Source of the DNA: Gracilariopsis chorda
Taxonomy: Eukaryota; Rhodophyta; Florideophyceae; Gracilariales; Gracilariaceae
Direction of reading: 5' to 3'
Assembly: GCA_003194525.1 (NCBI GenBank)
Contig: NBIV01000686.1
Span: 1-21,907 of the forward strand
Length of the DNA stretch: 21,907 nt
Position 1 is the first letter of the stretch; each line of letters begins with the position of its first letter. Shown piece by piece: positions 4,784-18,274 of the stretch. A model generated the notes under the pieces. That model had not been told where the DNA came from. It did no database searches and saw nothing but the letters and a program-made list of their open reading frames with translations. Made by a program: the position numbers and the translations under genes.

Positions 4784-4972
4784 CTCACCGTCCTTGTCAG
4801 ACGGTGAGGAAGAAGGAGATGGAGTGGACCATCTCACCATCCTTGGGGATGGTGAGAAAGCGTCCTGCCTTCTCACCATCCCCGAGGATGGTGTGATGTC
4901 TGCTTACAATGCCGCATTCATGCAAGCATGTTAGGACTCTAACTACCGAGAAAGACGACTAGCGTCTTTCTC
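4784..4972 (+). repeat. Cluster of four perfect or near-perfect palindromes in U3, copy A
   Basis: Hairpin 1 at 4784-4808 has a 9-bp stem CTCACCGTC/GACGGTGAG and a 7-nt loop. Hairpin 2 at 4832-4857 has an 11-bp stem TCTCACCATCC/GGATGGTGAGA and a 4-nt loop. Hairpin 3 at 4871-4896 has an 8-bp core CACCATCC/GGATGGTG and a 4-nt loop, with two further outer pairs. Hairpin 4 at 4948-4972 has a 10-bp stem GAGAAAGACG/CGTCTTTCTC and a 5-nt loop, ending 6 nt before the TATA box. Hairpins 1-3 are variants of one sequence family (CTCACCRTCC). Smaller palindromes lie between 3 and 4 (CATGC-AA-GCATG at 4922-4930 with flanks; TTAG-GACT-CTAA). They could be paired operator sites for a dimeric DNA-binding protein or structured RNA in the 3' end of genomic RNA. 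Confidence 0.88.
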
Positions 4973-4978
4973 TCTGAG

Positions 4979-4986
4979 TATAAAAG
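4979..4986 (+). promoter_or_regulatory. TATA box of the LTR promoter, copy A
   Basis: TATAAAAG lies 213 nt into the LTR. A TATA box normally sets initiation 25-30 nt downstream, near 5005-5015. The last ATG upstream is at 4928; none follows until gag, so the edge of the ATG-free zone agrees with this promoter position. Confidence 0.85.
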
Positions 4987-5183
4987 GAGGGAACAGAGCT
5001 CGGCCTTTGCCTCTCGTCTGTTCCCCAACCCATTATTATCATCAACTCTACCTCTTCAAGCAAAGGAATCATCCTTTTTGGGCCGCCCCTAGCTACCACT
5101 ACAGGCCGCCCCTTTTTTTAAACGTATTATTTCACGACATTCCGGAATTATCCGTGGATAATCGTCGATTTTTACCGTTTCCA

Positions 5184-5990
5184 AGTAAGTCATTCGACAT
5201 CTAAAGAATTGAAAAATTCTGTTGGTACTGATTAAGCGTTGTTAACCAATACGTATAAGACGTAATTACTAACCACACATTTTTTCTAAATTACATTCTT
5301 TTAGTGTCCAATCAGCATATAACTACAGTGGCTCGTAAACAGCCAGGCACTGTTTTTATTTATAATTCAATCTATCCTACGGTAACCGTAGAGCACCCAG
5401 CCTCCCCGCATCGTCACCATCTTGCTCTACTACCAGCGCCACCAACCAATCAGCAACGACCGAACATATTGGACCATCTGACCCCTTCAGAAGTGGAAAG
5501 TGAATCAGAACCGGGCCACCGCTCAACTACATCCAGCCGCAAACCGCCAAGTGTCTTTGACCTTGAAGCCGAAGAAATACCAGTGCCTCGCCGCCGCCAA
5601 CACACACAAGTGCCAGTGCAGCCGAGCACCAGTGGCATACAGAAGCTCCGCAGGAAAAAGGCCAAGTGTTTGGCTGACCAATTGCAACCAAAGAAGAAGA
5701 CCACGCGTGTGGCTCGTGCCAAACGCTTCTGCACATTGTGCAAAATTCAGTGCAACAGTGCAAAAACCTTTTTTGACCACTGTCAGTCTAAAACACACCG
5801 CAACCGCGTGCAGTGTAAGCGTACTCCGCCTTACTGTGCTACCTGTAAGCGCTCATTTGAGTCGCATCATCATTTGAACCGCCACAAAAACGGCAAAGCA
5901 CACTTCAAAGTGCTCTACAATCAAAAATTTAAAAAAATAAATAGTTGTGCTTTTGCGTATTACTCTACGATTAGTAACCAATACCAATAG
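5184..5990 (+). CDS. U1-type C2H2 zinc-finger protein, spliced start codon, copy A
   Basis: Coding sequence is A5184 joined to 5305-5990. The start codon exists only after splicing; in genomic DNA the first in-frame codon would be GTG at 5304, which spans the acceptor. The protein has a Pro/Ser-rich N-terminal half, a basic stretch (residues about 115-141, LRRKKAK and PKKK, a likely nuclear localisation signal) and two fingers, C143-x2-C146-x12-H159-x5-H165 and C178-x2-C181-x12-H194-x5-H200. The x12/x5 spacing is that of U1-like (matrin-type) fingers, which often bind RNA. This copy has one extra A in the A-run near the end, so it runs past the normal stop and adds about 17 residues. There is no methionine after the first. 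Function is unknown; possible roles are binding element RNA or the U3 palindromes. Confidence 0.75.
5185..5304 (+). other. 120-nt spliceosomal intron in the leader, copy A
   Basis: The donor is CCAA|GTAAGT (perfect +1 to +6 consensus) and the acceptor is ATTCTTTTAG|TGTCC, preceded by a T-rich tract and a possible branch site TACTAAC (5267-5273), which matches the yeast-type branch consensus. Splicing joins A5184 to T5305-G5306 and so makes an ATG. The upstream exon (about 5010-5184) has no ATG and carries a direct repeat GGCCGCCCCT at 5081-5090 and 5104-5113. A 6-bp hairpin AGAATT-GAAA-AATTCT lies inside the intron near 5205-5220. The intron is conserved at 119-120 nt in all three copies. No transcript data are available here. 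Confidence 0.82.
5936..5941 (+). terminator. Polyadenylation signal AATAAA, copy A
   Basis: AATAAA is followed by a GT/T-rich stretch (GTTGTGCTTTTGCG). It would end a short zinc-finger mRNA in the upstream position, and genomic RNA when it lies in the downstream LTR. In copies B and C the zinc-finger stop codon TAA lies inside this hexamer; in copy A an extra A moves the frame. Confidence 0.6.
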
Positions 5991-6077
5991 GCTAATTGTG
6001 TACGATTAAAGCTTAGTTAAACACAGTACTCTATTCTATTAGCATACAAAACACTGTAGTAATTTGTTTAGTTCATC

Positions 6078-7682
6078 ATGCCGCCACTTAACGGAAATTT
6101 TACTACCAATGTTAGGTATGCAAATCAGCAACAACGACAATTTATCGAATTTATTAAGAATATTCAGGAAAACAATACCCAAGCAGAGCCTGCTCAAGTA
6201 ATCGAACTTCTGAGAACTGAATACCCTCCAGATAAGCTACTCACTTTTACAATTTTAAGTAATGGATTGCTTATGCGTAAGTTTGCAAAGTTCTTAGAAG
6301 ATCGTGGAATTAGTCTCGCAGAACATGAAAGCGGTCACCTCTTAAAAAGAATTGCCAAAACAATTTTTGAGGAGTCTCATTTAGAAGATGCTTTCACTGC
6401 TATAGATTTATTCGAGCAAACGCCGGCACCTGCTCCGCCTACCCGACAGCAACCACAGAGATTTGCAGACGTCGAAGAAGAAACTGAGGTTGAGCAACAA
6501 CGGGAGCTCTCACCTCCGAAACGCGTGAATGAGCAAAATCGCCAACGCCAGCCATGGCGTGCTCACAACGCTACCAATGAGCCACAAACGAACTTTGGAG
6601 ACAGCCGAGACAGGATAGCTCACTATATTGCGTCTCGTTTCAAAGATCAATCGTCTAAATTTTCAGGAGCCCTTGGTGAATGTTGGGAGGAATTTCTGAG
6701 CGAATATAATTATGCCGCTCTAGATTACAATCTATCCAACCATCAACGACTCCAATATTTACACCACCTTTTGCGTGGAAACGCGAAGCGTTTTTACGTA
6801 CAAAGCGTTGATGGCAGAGTGCGAAGTTTCAGGGAAGCTTCAGCAGTAATGGAAAAGGAGTATAATTCTCTTTCCCGTCAGAACCGCATTGCTGCCTATT
6901 TACGTAACTTACGAATCCAAAAATTTGCTTCAAAGAGCTCTTCATTAAGCGACGCTTTGGAGAAACTCCACGAAGAAATTTCGAAGTTGTCCCCACAAGG
7001 CCCTATGCACTGCCGATCCGAGCGCAACAGAATCGAATATTTACAGAATGCTGTAATTGGTAATTCCTGGGCGCGAGATGCCTGCAGCAGGGCCAATGCA
7101 GGACTGATTAGTTATCATGAACTTTACGGTCAGTTGGAAGCTGCAATTCAACTCGATCAAGAAGAGAAAATCGGTCGCATGCGAGATCAAAAGAGTCTTC
7201 AGTTGGACTCACTTTCCACCGACGATTTTCAGAACTCTGACACGAGTGGAACGTTCTATGCTGGCCAATCCTGATACGTACGTCACCCACATTCCACAAA
7301 CCGGACAAACTTTCGTCAATCCAAAAGCAGACGAAATGTTACCTGTTGGAATTGTGGTAAATTCGGACATGTTGTTGCCGAATGCAGGCAACGCAAGGAC
7401 CTCACCAACAATGCCGCTAACCGTGTGCAATATTTGCAACGCAACGGCTATAAGGATCAGAACAAGGCTTTAAACCGTGTCCTGTATGAAATCTGCCAAC
7501 AGCTCGAAGAGTCCAGTGATTCCGATGAATTCGAAAGCGCGGAAACATTCTTTGCTTGCAACGGCGAGGCAGATGTTAATGCAGACAACGAAAACTCTGA
7601 TCCTTCCGAACAATTCTTTGCATCTAATTTTGGAACGCAGAGTAGCGAACCTTCCCTCTCGAATTGCCTTGAGGATTTTTAA
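6078..7682 (+). CDS. gag: gag, unit 2, with internal TGA stop before the nucleocapsid
   Basis: Gag forms the virus-like particle and packages element RNA. ATG 6078 is the first ATG after the promoter. Residues 1-398 hold a Glu/Gln/Pro-rich region (about 100-170) and a helical capsid-like region (about 200-370). TGA at 7272-7274 (codon 399) then ends the frame. The same frame continues through a basic segment and a CCHC knuckle (C423-x2-C426-x4-H431-x4-C436), then an acidic tail, to TAA 7680-7682, 534 codons in all. Unit 1 has CGA at the TGA, so this is most simply a CpG-transition nonsense mutation. As written, Gag lacks its RNA-binding domain and pol cannot be reached unless the TGA is read through. 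Pol overlaps the end in the -1 frame. Confidence 0.9.
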
Positions 7683-10868: not shown

Positions 10869-10886
10869 TGTGAGGATAAAGCTTCG

Positions 10887-11075
10887 CTCACCGTCCTTGT
10901 CAGACGGTGAGGAAGAAGGAGATGGAGTGGACCATCTCACCATCCTTGGGGATGGTGAGAAAGCGTCCTGCCTTCTCACCATCCCCGAGGATGGTGTGAT
11001 GTCTGCTTACAATGCCGCATTCATGCGAGCATGTTAGGACTCTAACTACCGAGAAAGACGACTAGCGTCTTTCTC
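10887..11075 (+). repeat. Palindrome cluster in U3, copy B
   Basis: Hairpins at 10887-10911, 10935-10960, 10974-10999 and 11051-11075 have the same stems as in copy A. All four are intact, and the last ends 6 nt before the TATA box. Confidence 0.88.
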
Positions 11076-11081
11076 TCTGAG

Positions 11082-11089
11082 TATAAAAG
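11082..11089 (+). promoter_or_regulatory. TATA box of the LTR promoter, copy B
   Basis: TATAAAAG, with the start site expected near 11108-11118. No ATG follows on the + strand until gag at 12180. Confidence 0.85.
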
Positions 11090-11286
11090 GAGGGAACAGA
11101 GCTCGGCCTTTGCCTCTCGTCTGTTCCCCAACCCATTATTATCATCAACTCTACCTCTTCAAGCAAAGGAATCATCCTTTTTGGGCCGCCCCTAGCTACC
11201 ACTACAGGCCGCCCCTTTTTTTAAACGTATTATTTCACGACATTCCAGAATTATCCGTGGATAATCGTCGATTTTTACCGTTTCCA

Positions 11287-12042
11287 AGTAAGTCATTCGA
11301 CATCTAAAGAATTGAAAAATTCTGTTGGTACTGATTAAGCGTTGTTAACCAATACGTATAAGACGTAATTACTAACCACACATTTTTTCTAAATTATATT
11401 CTTTTAGTGTCCAATCAGCATATAACTACAGTGGCTCGTAAACAGCCAGGCACTGTTTTTATTTATAATTCAATCTATCCTACGGTAACCGTAGAGCACC
11501 CAGCCTCCCCGCATCGTCACCATCTTGCTCTACTACCAGCGCCACCAACCAATCAGCAACGACCGAACATATTGGACCATCTGACCCCTTCAGAAGTGGA
11601 AAGTGAATCAGAACCGGGCCACCGCTCAACTACATCCAGCCGCAAACCGCCAAGTGTCTTTGACCTTGAAGCCGAAGAAATACCAGTGCCTCGCCGCCGC
11701 CAACACACACAAGTGCCAGTGCAGCCGAGCACCAGTGGCATACAGAAGCTCCGCAGGAAAAAGGCCAAGTGTTTGGCTGACCAATTGCAACCAAAGAAGA
11801 AGACCACGCGTGTGGCTCGTGCCAAACGCTTCTGCACATTGTGCAAAATTCAGTGCAACAGTGCAAAAACCTTTTTTGACCACTGTCAGTCTAAAACACA
11901 CCGCAACCGCGTGCAGTGTAAGCGTACTCCGCCTTACTGTGCTACCTGTAAGCGCTCATTTGAGTCGCATCATCATTTGAACCGCCACAAAAACGGCAAA
12001 GCACACTTCAAAGTGCTCTACAATCAAAATTTAAAAAAATAA
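11287..12042 (+). CDS. U1-type C2H2 zinc-finger protein, spliced start codon, copy B (intact)
   Basis: Coding sequence is A11287 joined to 11408-12042, exactly 636 nt, 211 residues plus stop. Two C-x2-C-x12-H-x5-H fingers lie at residues 143-165 and 178-200, preceded by basic clusters at about 115-121 and 130-141. The N-terminal half is low-complexity, rich in Pro, Ser and Glu (SEVESESEP near 62-70). The stop TAA (12040-12042) lies inside AATAAA (12038-12043), so the mRNA would have almost no 3' UTR. There are no internal Met codons, and the two other + frames also contain no ATG. I treat this copy as the reference. It lies between the promoter and gag; whether it is LTR-resident or internal depends on the unresolved LTR edge. 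I do not recognise a named family for the whole protein. Confidence 0.82.
11288..11407 (+). other. 120-nt spliceosomal intron in the leader, copy B
   Basis: Donor CCAA|GTAAGT and acceptor ATTCTTTTAG|TGTCC as in copy A. Splicing joins A11287 to T11408-G11409 and makes an ATG. Confidence 0.82.
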
Positions 12043-12043
12043 A
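12038..12043 (+). terminator. Polyadenylation signal overlapping the zinc-finger stop codon, copy B
   Basis: AATAAA contains the TAA stop at 12040-12042 and is followed by a GT/T-rich element, GTTGTGCTTTTGCG. Confidence 0.6.
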
Positions 12044-12179
12044 TAGTTGTGCTTTTGCGTATTACTCTACGATTAGTAACCAATACCAATAGGCTAATTG
12101 TGTACGATTAAAGCTTAGTTAAACACAGTACTCTATTCTATTAGCATACAAAACACTGTAGTAATTTGTTTAGTTCATC

Positions 12180-13784
12180 ATGCCGCCACTTAACGGAAAT
12201 TTTACTACCAATGTTAGGTATGCAAATCAGCAACAACGACAATTTATCGAATTTATTAAGAATATTCAGGAAAACAATACCCAAGCAGAGCCTGCTCAAG
12301 TAATCGAACTTCTGAGAACTGAATACCCTCCAGATAAGCTACTCACTTTTACAATTTTAAGTAATGGATTGCTTATGCGTAAGTTTGCAAAGTTCTTAGA
12401 AGATCGTGGAATTAGTCTCGCAGAACATGAAAGCGGTCACCTCTTAAAAAGAATTGCCAAAACAATTTTTGAGGAGTCTCATTTAGAAGATGCTTTCACT
12501 GCTATAGATTTATTCGAGCAAACGCCGGCACCTGCTCCGCCTACCCGACAGCAACCACAGAGATTTGCAGACGTCGAAGAAGAAACTGAGGTTGAGCAAC
12601 AACGGGAGCTCTCACCTCCGAAACGCGTGAATGAGCAAAATCGCCAACGCCAGCCATGGCGTGCTCACAACGCTACCAATGAGCCACAAACGAACTTTGG
12701 AGACAGCCGAGACAGGATAGCTCACTATATTGCGTCTCGTTTCAAAGATCAATCGTCTAAATTTTCAGGAGCCCTTGGTGAATGTTGGGAGGAATTTCTG
12801 AGCGAATATAATTATGCCGCTCTAGATTACAATCTATCCAACCATCAACGACTCCAATATTTACACCACCTTTTGCGTGGAAACGCGAAGCGTTTTTACG
12901 TACAAAGCGTTGATGGCAGAGTGCGAAGTTTCAGGGAAGCTTCAGCAGTAATGGAAAAGGAGTATAATTCTCTTTCCCGTCAGAACCGCATTGCTGCCTA
13001 TTTACGTAACTTACGAATCCAAAAATTTGCTTCAAAGAGCTCTTCATTAAGCGACGCTTTGGAGAAACTCCACGAAGAAATTTCGAAGTTGTCCCCACAA
13101 GGCCCTATGCACTGCCGATCCGAGCGCAACAGAATCGAATATTTACAGAATGCTGTAATTGGTAATTCCTGGGCGCGAGATGCCTGCAGCAGGGCCAATG
13201 CAGGACTGATTAGTTATCATGAACTTTACGGTCAGTTGGAAGCTGCAATTCAACTCGATCAAGAAGAGAAAATCGGTCGCATGCGAGATCAAAAGAGTCT
13301 TCAGTTGGACTCACTTTCCACCGACGATTTTCAGAACTCTGACACGAGTGGAACGTTCTATGCTGGCCAATCCTGATACGTACGTCACCCGCATTCCACA
13401 AACCGGACAAACTTTCGTCAATCCAAAAGCAGACGAAATGTTACCTGTTGGAATTGTGGTAAATTCGGACATGTTGTTGCCGAATGCAGGCAACGCAAGG
13501 ACCTCACCAACAATGCCGCTAACCGTGTGCAATATTTGCAACGCAACGGCTATAAGGATCAGAACAAGGCTTTAAACCGTGTCCTGTATGAAATCTGCCA
13601 ACAGCTCGAAGAGTCCAGTGATTCCGATGAATTCGAAAGCGCGGAAACATTCTTTGCTTGCAACGGCGAGGCAGATGTTAATGCAGACAACGAAAACTCT
13701 GATCCTTCCGAACAATTCTTTGCATCTAATTTTGGAACGCAGAGTAGCGAACCTTCCCTCTCGAATTGCCTTGAGGATTTTTAA
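12180..13784 (+). CDS. gag: gag, unit 3, with internal TGA stop before the nucleocapsid
   Basis: Almost identical to unit 2 gag over all 535 codons. ATG 12180 is the first ATG after the copy B promoter. TGA at 13374-13376 interrupts the frame at codon 399; the CCHC knuckle follows in the same frame at about 13446-13487, and the frame ends at TAA 13782-13784. The clearest difference I saw from unit 2 lies just after the TGA (CACCCGCATTCC here, CACCCACATTCC in unit 2). Sharing the TGA with unit 2 points to duplication or conversion of an already mutated gag, unless the stop is functional. Confidence 0.9.
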
Positions 13785-16700
13785 CTGGGAGTACTAACGA
13801 TTTCTGCCGTAGTGCTCCTCCCAAGCAGCAGAACAAGAAAGGACCAGACAAGTCCTCCAATGGCTCACCTCGAATCATTCGTTTTTGTACACGAAAGCAA
13901 GCACGATACAGTTCACGAACACCTCGTTGGAACCTTGTTGATATTCACAACGTGAAGACAAGCTCATTCGAGAGAAACCGACGCGAATTTCAAGGCGCAT
14001 GTCTGGATTCTGGCGCACAACAATCTGTAGTAGGAAAACAACAAGCCCAAGCGTACTTTAAACTTGTAGGCATTCCATTTAAGCTGAATCACTCCAACAA
14101 AGCTTTTAAATTTGGAGATGGCATATACTTCAGCCGTGGAACCATGCAAGTACGCATTCCAATCCCTGGCAACACTTTTCCTCCACTTGAGATTGACGTC
14201 GTTGACGCCTCTGTACCTCTTCTTATTGGACTCGATATCCTGGACTTACACGCTCTTGTACCTGACAACGTGGAAAACATGTTACTCAACAAGAAGTTCA
14301 ATTGGTCGATACCAATCACGCGGAAATTCGGTCATATGTACTTAGAATGGGACTTCTCTGAGATTCTTTACACAAAAAGTGAACTCCGAAAAATGCATAT
14401 GCACTTCTACCATCCAAGCGCAAACAAGCTTTTCAACTTGATCTCCCGAGCAAAGCCAGAACATGCCACGGTTGAGACCAGGAAACTCATTGAGCATATC
14501 TCAAAATCATGTGCCACGTGCCAACGTTTTACACCCCGGCCACAGTCCTTCCAAGTATCCATTCCAGGCAAAATAATATTCAACAGTGAAATTGCTTTGG
14601 ATCTTATGTTCTTGGACAAAATGCCAGTTCTACACCTTGTCGACACACAAACGCACTTCAGCTCTGCAGTTTTCCTCAAGAGTCAGACCACTGAAGCAAT
14701 CTGGTACGCATTTCTCGGTTGTTGGGCCACATTATACACCGGCTATCCAGACAAGATGAGACTGGATAAAGCCAGACAATTCACATCCGCTCGATGGAAA
14801 GAACTGACAAGCATGGCTGGAATCACCTTACAGTTCTCAGGCGTTGAAAGTCATAATTCCCTTGGAACCGGTGAACGGTATCATGGACCCTTACGTCGTA
14901 TCTACCAAAGGATTCGATATAGCGAGCCCGATGTCCCCATCGCCTTAGCCCTTCGACTTGCTGTCAAGGCTATGAACGATACAATGAATCCCGAAGGACT
15001 TGTACCTTCACTACTCGTATTTGGAGTTCTTCCTCGCTTTCCACCGTTTAGCACAGAACTTCCAAATCATGAGGAGCGAATGAGAGCTCTTCAAATCGCG
15101 CGCACTGAGATGGAAACCATCACTTCGGAACTTCGTTTGCGCCGTGCAATCGTCGCTCGCATTCCATCTGCCGCATCAACAAGCTTGAAAGTTGGACAAG
15201 AAGTTCTAGTTTATCGAGAAGATTTGAAGCCAATAAAATGGACTGGACCCTATAAAATTGTAAGAATTGATAACAAACAAGTCTTTATCAATCGCAATGG
15301 TGAAACAGTCCAACATTCTATTGCGCAGGTCAAACCTTTTCATCGTGACGAACTAATGGACAACCTTCATACTTGTCTCGAACCAATACTTCCTGGTGAT
15401 TTTGAACTTTATGATGTTCAAATCACTGAAGTGTTAGGTCCTTCCGATCACCGTCGGAACCTACCAGCATTCAGTGAAGCTAAACGAAAAGAGCTGGCAG
15501 GATTAATATCGCGTGGAACGTGGAAAGTCATTAGACAAGACGAAGTGTCAGAAGACGCCAATATCCTCACTGGCCGCTTTGTGCTCGCCATCAAGAATCC
15601 TGAGACTGATGAAGAGATATTTAAAGCCAGATTTGTCGCCCAAGGGCACAAAGATCCAGAAAAAGCTTTTCTAGTGCACAATTCGCCTAATCTAAGACAA
15701 TATTCAACCCGAATTCTCGTTACCGTCGCCGCTATTCTTGGATATAGAGTATGGAACACAGATGTTCGTCAAGCATACTTGCAATCCGCACAGAAGCTCA
15801 TGCGTAAAGTATACCTGAAGCCTCCAAAAGAACTGGAACTTCCAGCACACATGTTGTTGGAACTTCTCCGCCCTCTTTATGGACTCTCAGACTCTGGAGA
15901 CTATTGGTACAGAACAATAACAACTCATCTGAAAGAAGACCTAGGAATGACCCCGACGAAAGGAGATCTGTCACTGTTTATGAAACACGAACAGGCAAAG
16001 CTCATTGGCTTAACCGGTGTTTACGTAGATGACCTCCTTCAATGCGGAACCGATCAATTCCTGCAACAGGCAAAGCTCACCCTTCAGAAGTTTGAATCAA
16101 AGGACTTAGAAATGGATTCCGCTTTATTTGCAGGCGTAAGAGTACGCAAAACCGATAACAGATTTTCACTAAGTCAGGAACATTATGCCAAACGATTGCG
16201 AATTCTTCCAAAAGATTGCACCTTCTCTGATTTCCGTTCATTGAGACATAAACTTGCTTGGTTGACCCACACGCGACCAGATATTTGCTGTGCTGTCAAC
16301 ATGGCTGCCCAAGTTACGGAACAATCTTTCTCAAGCGAAGATGTGAAGAACATCGACAAAGTCGTAAAACATATTCAGCAAAGTCAAAATGTAAATCTGA
16401 AATATGTGAAACTTGATATCAATTCACTCCGCCTCAAGGTATATTCCGATTCATCATTTGCCAACAATGCAGACAATTCATCCCAGATTGGATTCATTAT
16501 TCTTCTCGTGGACAAGTTCGATAATTGCAATATTCTTCATTTCTCAAGTCACAAAAGCCGGCCCGTTACCAGATCCGTTTTAGGAGGAGAGCTATACGCA
16601 TTTGCAGATGCATTCGATATAGCTTACGTTATCAAACATGACTTAGAGTCAATAATTGGGAAGAAAATTCCAATCACAATGCTTACTGACTCAAAAAGTT

Positions 16701-16948
16701 TATTCGACGTAATAACAAAAAGCTCATCGACATCTGAAAAGCGACTAATGATCGACATTTCTGCAGTTCGTGAAGCCTACTCGAACCACGAAATTTCCGA
16801 TGTTGGGTATATCACCTCCGCCAACAACCCCGCCGATTGTTTTACCAAAGTTAAGAACTGTGATGCTATGAACCAAATTTTTAGTACTTCCACATGCGTC
16901 TTAGATATTAATCAACTAGTTATACGTGATTTTATGCGACAATTGTAA
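13775..16948 (+). CDS. pol: pol polyprotein, unit 3, Copia order
   Basis: Full-length open frame with every motif described for unit 2: protease DSG, integrase HHCC and D-D-35-E, GPY/F-like tail, RT YVDD, RNase H. Numbered from the GTG at 13952, it differs from unit 2 at residues 77 (Pro for Leu), 320 (Arg for Lys), 699 (Gly for Arg), 728 (Gly for Val), 737 (Arg for Gly) and 854 (Asp for Ala). Residue 728 lies in the motif before the RNase H connection where copia elements usually carry Gly (LG-type), so unit 3 looks closer to a functional ancestor than units 1 and 2. Expression as Gag-Pol would need both TGA readthrough and the -1 shift. Confidence 0.95.
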   Translation, partial: GFLTGSTNDFCRSAPPKQQNKKGPDKSSNGSPRIIRFCTRKQARYSSRTPRWNLVDIHNVKTSSFERNRREFQGACLDSGAQQSVVGKQQAQAYFKLVGIPFKLNHSNKAFKFGDGIYFSRGTMQVRIPIPGNTFPPLEIDVVDASVPLLIGLDILDLHALVPDNVENMLLNKKFNWSIPITRKFGHMYLEWDFSEILYTKSELRKMHMHFYHPSANKLFNLISRAKPEHATVETRKLIEHISKSCATCQRFTPRPQSFQVSIPGKIIFNSEIALDLMFLDKMPVLHLVDTQTHFSSAVFLKSQTTEAIWYAFLGCWATLYTGYPDKMRLDKARQFTSARWKELTSMAGITLQFSGVESHNSLGTGERYHGPLRRIYQRIRYSEPDVPIALALRLAVKAMNDTMNPEGLVPSLLVFGVLPRFPPFSTELPNHEERMRALQIARTEMETITSELRLRRAIVARIPSAASTSLKVGQEVLVYREDLKPIKWTGPYKIVRIDNKQVFINRNGETVQHSIAQVKPFHRDELMDNLHTCLEPILPGDFELYDVQITEVLGPSDHRRNLPAFSEAKRKELAGLISRGTWKVIRQDEVSEDANILTGRFVLAIKNPETDEEIFKARFVAQGHKDPEKAFLVHNSPNLRQYSTRILVTVAAILGYRVWNTDVRQAYLQSAQKLMRKVYLKPPKELELPAHMLLELLRPLYGLSDSGDYWYRTITTHLKEDLGMTPTKGDLSLFMKHEQAKLIGLTGVYVDDLLQCGTDQFLQQAKLTLQKFESKDLEMDSALFAGVRVRKTDNRFSLSQEHYAKRLRILPKDCTFSDFRSLRHKLAWLTHTRPDICCAVNMAAQVTEQSFSSEDVKNIDKVVKHIQQSQNVNLKYVKLDINSLRLKVYSDSSFANNADNSSQIGFIILLVDKFDNCNILHFSSHKSRPVTRSVLGGELYAFADAFDIAYVIKHDLESIIGKKIPITMLTDSKSLFDVITKSSSTSEKRLMIDISAVREAYSNHEISDVGYITSANNPADCFTKVKNCDAMNQIFSTSTCVLDINQLVIRDFMRQL
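13778..13818 (+). promoter_or_regulatory. Probable -1 frameshift site between gag and pol, unit 3
   Basis: Five Ts at 13778-13782 run into TAA 13782-13784. The stem GGAGTAC/GTGCTCC at 13788-13794 and 13812-13818 is identical to unit 2. Pol is open in the -1 frame from 13775. Confidence 0.65.
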
Positions 16949-16970: not shown

Positions 16971-17182
16971 TGTGAGGATAAAGCTTCGCTCACCGTCCTT
17001 GTCAGACGGTGAGGAAGAAGGAGATGGAGTGGACCATCTCACCATCCTTGGGGATGGTGAGAAAGCGTCCTGCCTTCTCACCATCCCGAGGATGGTGTGA
17101 TGTCTGCTTACAATGCCGCATTCATGCGAGCATGTTAGGACTCTAACTACCGAGAAAGACGACTAGCGTCTTTCTCTCTGAG

Positions 17183-17190
17183 TATAAAAG
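17183..17190 (+). promoter_or_regulatory. TATA box of the LTR promoter, copy C
   Basis: TATAAAAG, 6 nt after the last palindrome, as in the other copies. Confidence 0.85.
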
Positions 17191-17387
17191 GAGGGAACAG
17201 AGCTCGGCCTTTGCCTCTCGTCTGTTCCCCAACCCATTATTATCATCAACTCTACCTCTTCAAGCAAAGGAATCATCCTTTTTGGGCCGCCCCTAGCTAC
17301 CACTACAGGCCGCCCCTTTTTTTAAACGTATTATTTCACGACATTCCAGAATTATCCGTGGATAATCGTCGATTTTTACCGTTTCCA

Positions 17388-18138
17388 AGTAAGTCATTCG
17401 ACATCTAAAGAATTGAAAAATTCTGTTGGTACTGATTAACGCGTTGTAACCAATACGTATAAGACGTAATTACTAACCACACATTTTTCTAAATTATATT
17501 CTTTTAGTGTCCAATCAGCATATAACTACAGTGGCTCGTAAACAGCCAGGCACTGTTTTTATTTATAAGTCAATCTATCCTACGGTAACCGTAGAGCACC
17601 CAGCCTCCCCGCATCGTCACCACCTTGCTGTACTACCAGCGCCACCAACCAATCAGCAACGACCGAACATATTGGACCATCTGACCCCTTCAGAAGTGGA
17701 AAGTGAATCAGAACCGGCCACCGCTCAACTACCATCCAGCCGCAAACCGCCAAGTGTCTTTGACCTTGAAGCCGAAGAAATACCAGTGCCTCGCCGCCGC
17801 CAACACACACAAGTGCCAGTGCAGCCGAGCACCAGTGGCAATACAGAAGCTCCGCAGGAAAAAGCCAAGTGTTTGGCTGACCAATTGCAACCAAAGAAGA
17901 GACCACGCGTGTGGCTCGTGCCAAACGCTTCTGCACATTGTGCAAAATTCAGTGCAACAGTGCAAAAACCTTTTTTGACCACTGTCAGTCTAAAACACAC
18001 CGCAACCGCGTGCAGTGTAAGCGTACTCCGCCTACTGTGCTACCTTAAGCGCTCATTGAGTCGCATCATCATTTGAACCGCCACAAAACGGCAAAAGCAC
18101 ACTTCAAAGTGCTCTACAATCAAAATTTAAAAAAATAA
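17388..18138 (+). pseudogene. C2H2 zinc-finger gene, copy C, frameshifted
   Basis: The first ~125 codons follow copy B. Paired small indels then shift the frame: one G lost in CCGGCC and one C gained in CTACCATCC (these two cancel), an extra A at GGCAATACAG, a G lost at AAAGCCAAG, and three bases lost in the AAGAAG run. Further losses are CGCCTACTG for CGCCTTACTG and ACCTTAAGC for ACCTGTAAGC. The open frame 17507-18076 therefore ends in an unrelated sequence without either finger. The Cys and His codons remain recognisable in other frames. Either a recent pseudogene or a poorly polished stretch. Confidence 0.85.
17389..17507 (+). other. 119-nt intron in the leader, copy C
   Basis: The donor GTAAGT and acceptor CTTTTAG|TG are kept, so splicing would still create the ATG (A17388 with T17508-G17509). 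The internal sequence differs from copies A and B by small indels. Confidence 0.78.
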
Positions 18139-18274
18139 ATAGTTGTGCTTTGCGTATTACTCTACGATTAGTAACCAATACCAATAGGCTAATTGTGTAC
18201 GATTAAAGCTTAGTTAAACACAGTACTCTATTCTATTAGCATACAAAACACTGTAGTAATTTGTTTAGTTCATC

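Follow-up and report, generated by a model that had tools for sequence, protein, structure and literature searches.

In a copia-type retrotransposon, present as three tandem copies in the 21,907-nt stretch of DNA analysed here (the window), the leader upstream of gag contains no plus-strand ATG over some 1.1 kb. Comparison of copies demonstrates that this absence is kept up in two subfamilies, and that the splice signals of a predicted leader intron are conserved together with the letters, A and TG, that its removal would bring together. On this sequence evidence we consider it probable, at roughly 0.8, that unspliced RNA is scanned as far as gag and that spliced RNA makes a zinc-finger protein from an AUG assembled by splicing.

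In the mechanism that we propose, one capped RNA would be made from the LTR. On its unspliced form a ribosome would meet no AUG for about 1.07 kb and would scan through the zinc-finger frame to start at gag. Removal of the 120-nt leader intron would join the last base of exon 1, an A, to the TG of exon 2, and the resulting AUG would start a protein of 211 residues that carries two zf-met/JAZ-like C2H2 fingers. Splicing would thus decide which protein is made, and purifying selection would clear AUGs from the whole leader, since a leader AUG would cut the production of Gag. If this is correct, splicing builds an initiation codon rather than only choosing between ORFs, and the choice of initiation site is fully coupled to splicing. 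The second subfamily and the 40 aligned leaders described below form a natural experiment on the strength of the scanning constraint over a 1.1-kb leader.

Organization of the element

The window (contig C673; the genome searched comprised 91.3 Mb in 1,081 contigs) consists of 6.1-kb units repeated head to tail, the three copies of which we call A, B and C (Table 1). Head-to-tail copies were also seen on contigs C1040, C520, C1058 and C312, and the tandem arrangement across 1-21907 and on these other contigs suggests recombination or concatemer formation, or else an effect of the assembly.

Table 1. Positions of the features in the window
Feature	Copy	Positions	Strand	Details
ATG-free interval	A	4931..6077	+	between ATGs at 4928 and 6078
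Predicted intron	A	5185-5304	+	from sequence comparison
LTR	B	10869..11242	+	TG...CA termini, 374 nt; U3 up to about 11110, followed by R/U5
ATG-free interval	B	11034..12179	+	between ATGs at 11031 and 12180, all plus-strand frames
TATA box, TATAAAAG	B	11082..11089	+	from sequence; a TATA is aligned in the second subfamily
Predicted intron	B	11288..11407	+	120 nt; GTAAGT, TACTAAC at 11370-11376, ...TTTTAG, AG at 11406-11407
Zinc-finger ORF	B	11408..12042	+	211 codons; first codon would be completed by splicing; stop TAA at 12040-12042
gag frame	B	12180..13376	+	398 codons, ended by in-frame TGA
pol open frame	B	13775..16948	+	protease-like, integrase, copia-type reverse transcriptase; first in-frame ATG at 14144
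ATG-free interval	C	17135..18274	+	between ATGs at 17132 and 18275
Predicted intron	C	17389-17507	+	from sequence comparison

The unit carries gag, integrase and copia-type reverse transcriptase domains. Its LTR, the limits of which were read from where single insertions begin and end, has the TG...CA termini and the short target-site duplication of Ty1/copia elements (Pseudoviridae). Of the 16 loci read at both ends, 10 have exact 5-bp duplications; as in that group, the integrase precedes a copia-type reverse transcriptase (RVT_2), with gag upstream. Within the pol frame, rve was matched at 223-297 and RVT_2 at 533-748. The RVT_2 match lies above its curated cut-off (84.2 vs 31.6 bits), and those to rve (27.9 vs 32.6 bits) and Retrotrans_gag (17.5 vs 24.1 bits) lie below theirs. 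Among 120 listed Pol matches, a relative in a named eukaryote, Chondrus crispus, is 45% identical, so that the host is probably a red alga; a search for COX1 gave two weak fragments, both below the cut-off. No relative of the zinc-finger protein or of the Pol alignment was found among viral contigs, nor any of Pol among phage records; in prokaryote genome contigs a single contig, L068, carries a relative (Pol 30% identical) and is probably a contaminant, and none of its 19 listed ORFs was, by eye, a zinc-finger ORF of this kind.

A TGA ends gag at 398 codons in copy A (6078-7274) as in copy B, and is absent from most of the other copies read at that position; the frame is longer elsewhere (534 codons in L014), and stop-free gag frames are present elsewhere in the genome, with a CCHC knuckle following in frame. 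The last 10 nt or so of the long gag frame are shared with pol, which is set one frame back and lacks an in-frame ATG between 13775 and 14144, so that a -1 shift would probably produce Pol. Near the start of pol, at 13792-13812, there is a TACTAAC...TAG motif.

The ATG-free interval and the predicted intron

Counting bore out the observation of the initial annotation that, in copy B, no plus-strand ATG occurs in any frame after 11033 until the gag ATG at 12180. In the three leaders successive ATGs lie 1,150, 1,149 and 1,143 nt apart; nowhere else in the window does such a gap exceed 262 nt. In copy B the interval opens about 50 nt ahead of the TATA box, in agreement with the annotation's placing of its start at the promoter, and ends at the gag ATG; transcription would be expected to start some 25-30 nt downstream of the TATA box. 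The U3 is ATG-rich, as had been noted, the exact figure being 7 ATGs in the 214 nt that separate the TATA box from the beginning of the LTR rather than about eight in 220. Similarly, the expectation of roughly 15 ATGs for the interval holds as a mononucleotide figure (15.6) and comes down to 12.13 as the mean of dinucleotide shuffles. This shuffle, which the annotation had proposed as a check, gave a minimum of 3 ATGs and reached the observed zero in 0 of 20,000 sequences. ATG has the lowest z value of the 64 triplets in the interval (-3.63), CTG, TTG, ACG and CAT being close to expectation, and 1,146-nt windows across gag-pol hold 14-24 ATGs each.

Removal of the predicted intron of copy B would join CCAA to TGTCC and form an ATG from the A at 11287 and the TG at 11408-11409; the 211-codon ORF that it would open contains no internal Met, and here too the sequence agrees with the initial annotation. 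That copies A and C are the same as B applies to the ATG-free interval and the predicted intron, which both have, and not to the zinc-finger frame of copy C, which is broken. The predicted intron of copy B is itself ATG-free (only 1.35 expected), as expected on the view that ribosomes scan unspliced RNA. Read by eye, the sequence around the new ATG gives a weak context in copy B (C at -3) and a strong one in L064, a member of the second subfamily (A at -3, G at +4); an A at -3 occurs in 10 of 40 aligned copies, mainly the more diverged ones. We found no intronless genomic copy when searching with a pattern allowing up to three mismatches (40 of 61 candidates scored), a result predicted by the packaging of unspliced RNA and equally by a lack of splicing.

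Between copy B and L064 the intron is 60.9% identical, compared with 61.4% for the finger-coding part of the ORF and 45.3% for the N-terminal coding part. Being about as conserved as the former and more so than the latter, the predicted intron may hold a further signal.

Comparison of copies and alternative readings

We aligned 40 leaders from the same genome, namely 38 of the 40 places from the main search (L024 and L034, being partial matches, were left out) together with L063 and L065 from among the more distant matches; as 40 of 196 candidates were scored, the number of copies is a lower bound. The junction letters are kept in all 40 (A before GT in 40, TG after the intron in 40), as is the gag ATG, and the splice signals are GT in 38, AG in 37, TACTAAC in 36 and GTAAGT in 31. 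Seventeen of the 40 leaders are ATG-free. With the proviso that the copies are not independent and that the neutral spectrum was derived from the same copies, the 10 with at most 15 changes from copy B hold no ATG against 2.1 expected neutrally, and the remaining 29 hold 66 against 82.8 (in total about 85 expected over 39); in successive classes of divergence from copy B, observed and expected numbers are 0 and 2.1 (10 copies), 15 and 17.6 (12), 23 and 24.0 (9) and 28 and 41.2 (8). Because ageing copies gain ATGs near the neutral rate, the desert must be maintained in the copies that spread.

A stronger test of selection than the copies within the family is provided by a second subfamily in the same genome, found when seven places among the more distant zinc-finger matches were read and represented by five of them, which are free of stops and 49-54% identical to the zinc-finger protein over almost its full length. 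The corresponding interval has no ATG in L064 (1,177 nt) and L069, one in L070, and two each in L061 and L062, the last a decayed copy with no more than 77% identity to L064. The aligned leaders of copy B and L064 show 469 differences in 1,110 positions (42%) and are both ATG-free, against a neutral expectation of about 15 ATGs, and dinucleotide shuffles of the L064 leader reached zero in 0 of 20,000. The initial annotation had named selection against upstream ATGs as the simplest explanation and related elements as a place to look for it, and these comparisons support that explanation. Its proposal of a start codon created by splicing also gains support, since removal of the aligned 133-nt predicted intron of the second subfamily would join AAAA to TGGCT, and an in-frame ATG would again arise at the junction despite the different flanks and protein. 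The spliced ORF there would have 220 codons and is intact in four of the five loci read. The zinc-finger protein is 53-56% identical between subfamilies, with dS saturated, vs about 86% for gag, so that this copia-type element has an extra protein evolving faster than gag.

Among the seven copies with a fully open gag, five have no ATG in the desert, L018 has one and L061 has two. Absence of desert ATGs went with a gag open to at least codon 423 (7 of 9 copies, vs 10 of 31 of the others; Fisher p 0.023), a value that is only indicative because the tandem copies are not independent. Two desert ATGs are common to six copies (three on C1040, and L019, L020 and L022), four of which also share a stop in gag, at codon 88. 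The sequence bordering the start of L020 does not match the element, and a copy with desert ATGs may therefore have moved, perhaps with borrowed Gag.

The desert might instead have come about as a by-product, through composition, biased mutation or a protein poor in Met, and owe nothing to selection on initiation. For the ORF alone this has some force, because synonymous shuffles with protein and codon usage fixed gave a mean of 2.46 ATGs in copy B and none in 657 of 20,000 (3.3%), and none in 332 of 20,000 (1.7%) for L064, making the absence of ATGs from the ORF modest evidence; the weight rests on the whole interval and on the second subfamily. CAT, the minus-strand ATG, occurs 20-23 times in the desert spans of the three copies (21 vs 19.6 expected in copy B), which argues against a strand-symmetric bias, and the non-coding leader, intron and spacer are ATG-free as well. 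Together with the near-neutral gain of ATGs in decaying copies, this leads us to disfavour a by-product as scarcely credible. We regard as very improbable a reading in which the intron only shortens the gag leader, exon 1 being spliced to an acceptor TTTAG (12169-12173) and the zinc-finger ORF being a relic. Copy B does have such an acceptor, 6 nt ahead of its gag ATG, and L064 has GTTAG at the same place, but the AG is missing in the decayed copy L062, gag would then need no ATG-free intron, ORF and spacer, and an ORF kept open at 53-56% protein identity with saturated dS is not a relic.

Leaky scanning without splicing, in which a weak GUG start (11407-11409) would be used on unspliced RNA and most ribosomes would continue to gag, has a precedent in rice tungro bacilliform virus (RTBV; Caulimoviridae), where scanning covers about 900 nt of ORFs I and II, which lack internal AUGs, and ORF I starts from AUU (PMC5902531). 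Like RTBV, the element has an extended ORF ahead of the main one and no AUG inside it in any frame, which would let ribosomes scan on; it differs in that the first ORF of RTBV starts on the same RNA, whereas the upstream ORF of the element appears to gain its AUG by splicing. A GTG is indeed in frame in unspliced RNA, and GTG is enriched in the desert (23 vs 11.1 expected). However, a GTG follows automatically from an AG|TG acceptor, its context is poor in copy B (T at -3), and leaky scanning leaves unexplained the 5' splice site, TACTAAC, acceptor and A before GT kept in two diverged subfamilies. We judge it unlikely, and favour the splice-made AUG.

The zinc-finger protein and related systems

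The zinc-finger ORF matches the Pfam families zf-met (E 5.3e-9) and zf-C2H2_jaz (E 1.2e-6), with two C2H2 fingers. Its homologues in the protein database are P0001, P0002, P0123, P0124 and, weakly, P0125; P0001, P0123 and P0124 (219, 182 and 171 residues) lack an internal Met and P0002 has three. P0001 is not an independent case, being identical to the ORF of L064, and its initial M does not distinguish spliced from unspliced DNA, as a GTG start is also written M.

The predicted structure is confident for the finger region only, and its weak structural matches include spliceosomal, JAZ, U1 and TUT1 fingers. From this model we speculate that the protein may be an RNA-binding regulator of the splicing, export or packaging of the element's own RNA; with confidence limited to the fingers and structural matches so weak, this is a lead and not a result. 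More tentatively still, start-codon assembly might act as a switch, the zinc-finger product feeding back on its own RNA so that splicing is blocked, or so that unspliced RNA is exported and packaged, in a Rev-like circuit that would lie wholly upstream of gag and be held open by selection against AUGs.

Scanned ORFs free of AUGs (RTBV) and spliced accessory genes (Cer1) are already known. Cer1, a Ty3-type element of Caenorhabditis elegans, expresses from a spliced mRNA the regulator CERV, on which export of its unspliced genomic RNA depends (PMC10309623). An accessory protein from spliced RNA is what we predict for the present element; the CERV ORF is in the env position and the zinc-finger ORF upstream of gag, and a splice-made start codon is not mentioned in the available text on Cer1, in which 'start codon' occurs 0 times (PMC10309623). 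Drosophila copia and barley BARE1, of the copia superfamily, have spliced RNAs that change the product (PMC3735527); splicing there favours Gag over Pol, whereas in the present element it would shift the output from Gag to a separate protein. Among the top matches listed from the open-access literature, a scope that takes in few subscription papers, we found neither this element nor any retrotransposon whose start codon is assembled through splicing.

The MDG1-group elements are of gypsy/Ty3 type, a superfamily other than that of this copia-type element. Those of Drosophila (412 and kin) have accessory ORFs, sORF1 and sORF2, upstream of gag, as the present element does, and their peptides have been detected (PMC11952523). 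Their full-length transcripts gave no evidence of splicing, and a short polyadenylated RNA carries sORF1 (PMC11952523). In copy B an AATAAA at 12038-12043 overlaps the stop codon of the zinc-finger ORF, and one stands at the same position in the second subfamily; by analogy with the short sORF1 RNA, this signal might end a short zinc-finger RNA.
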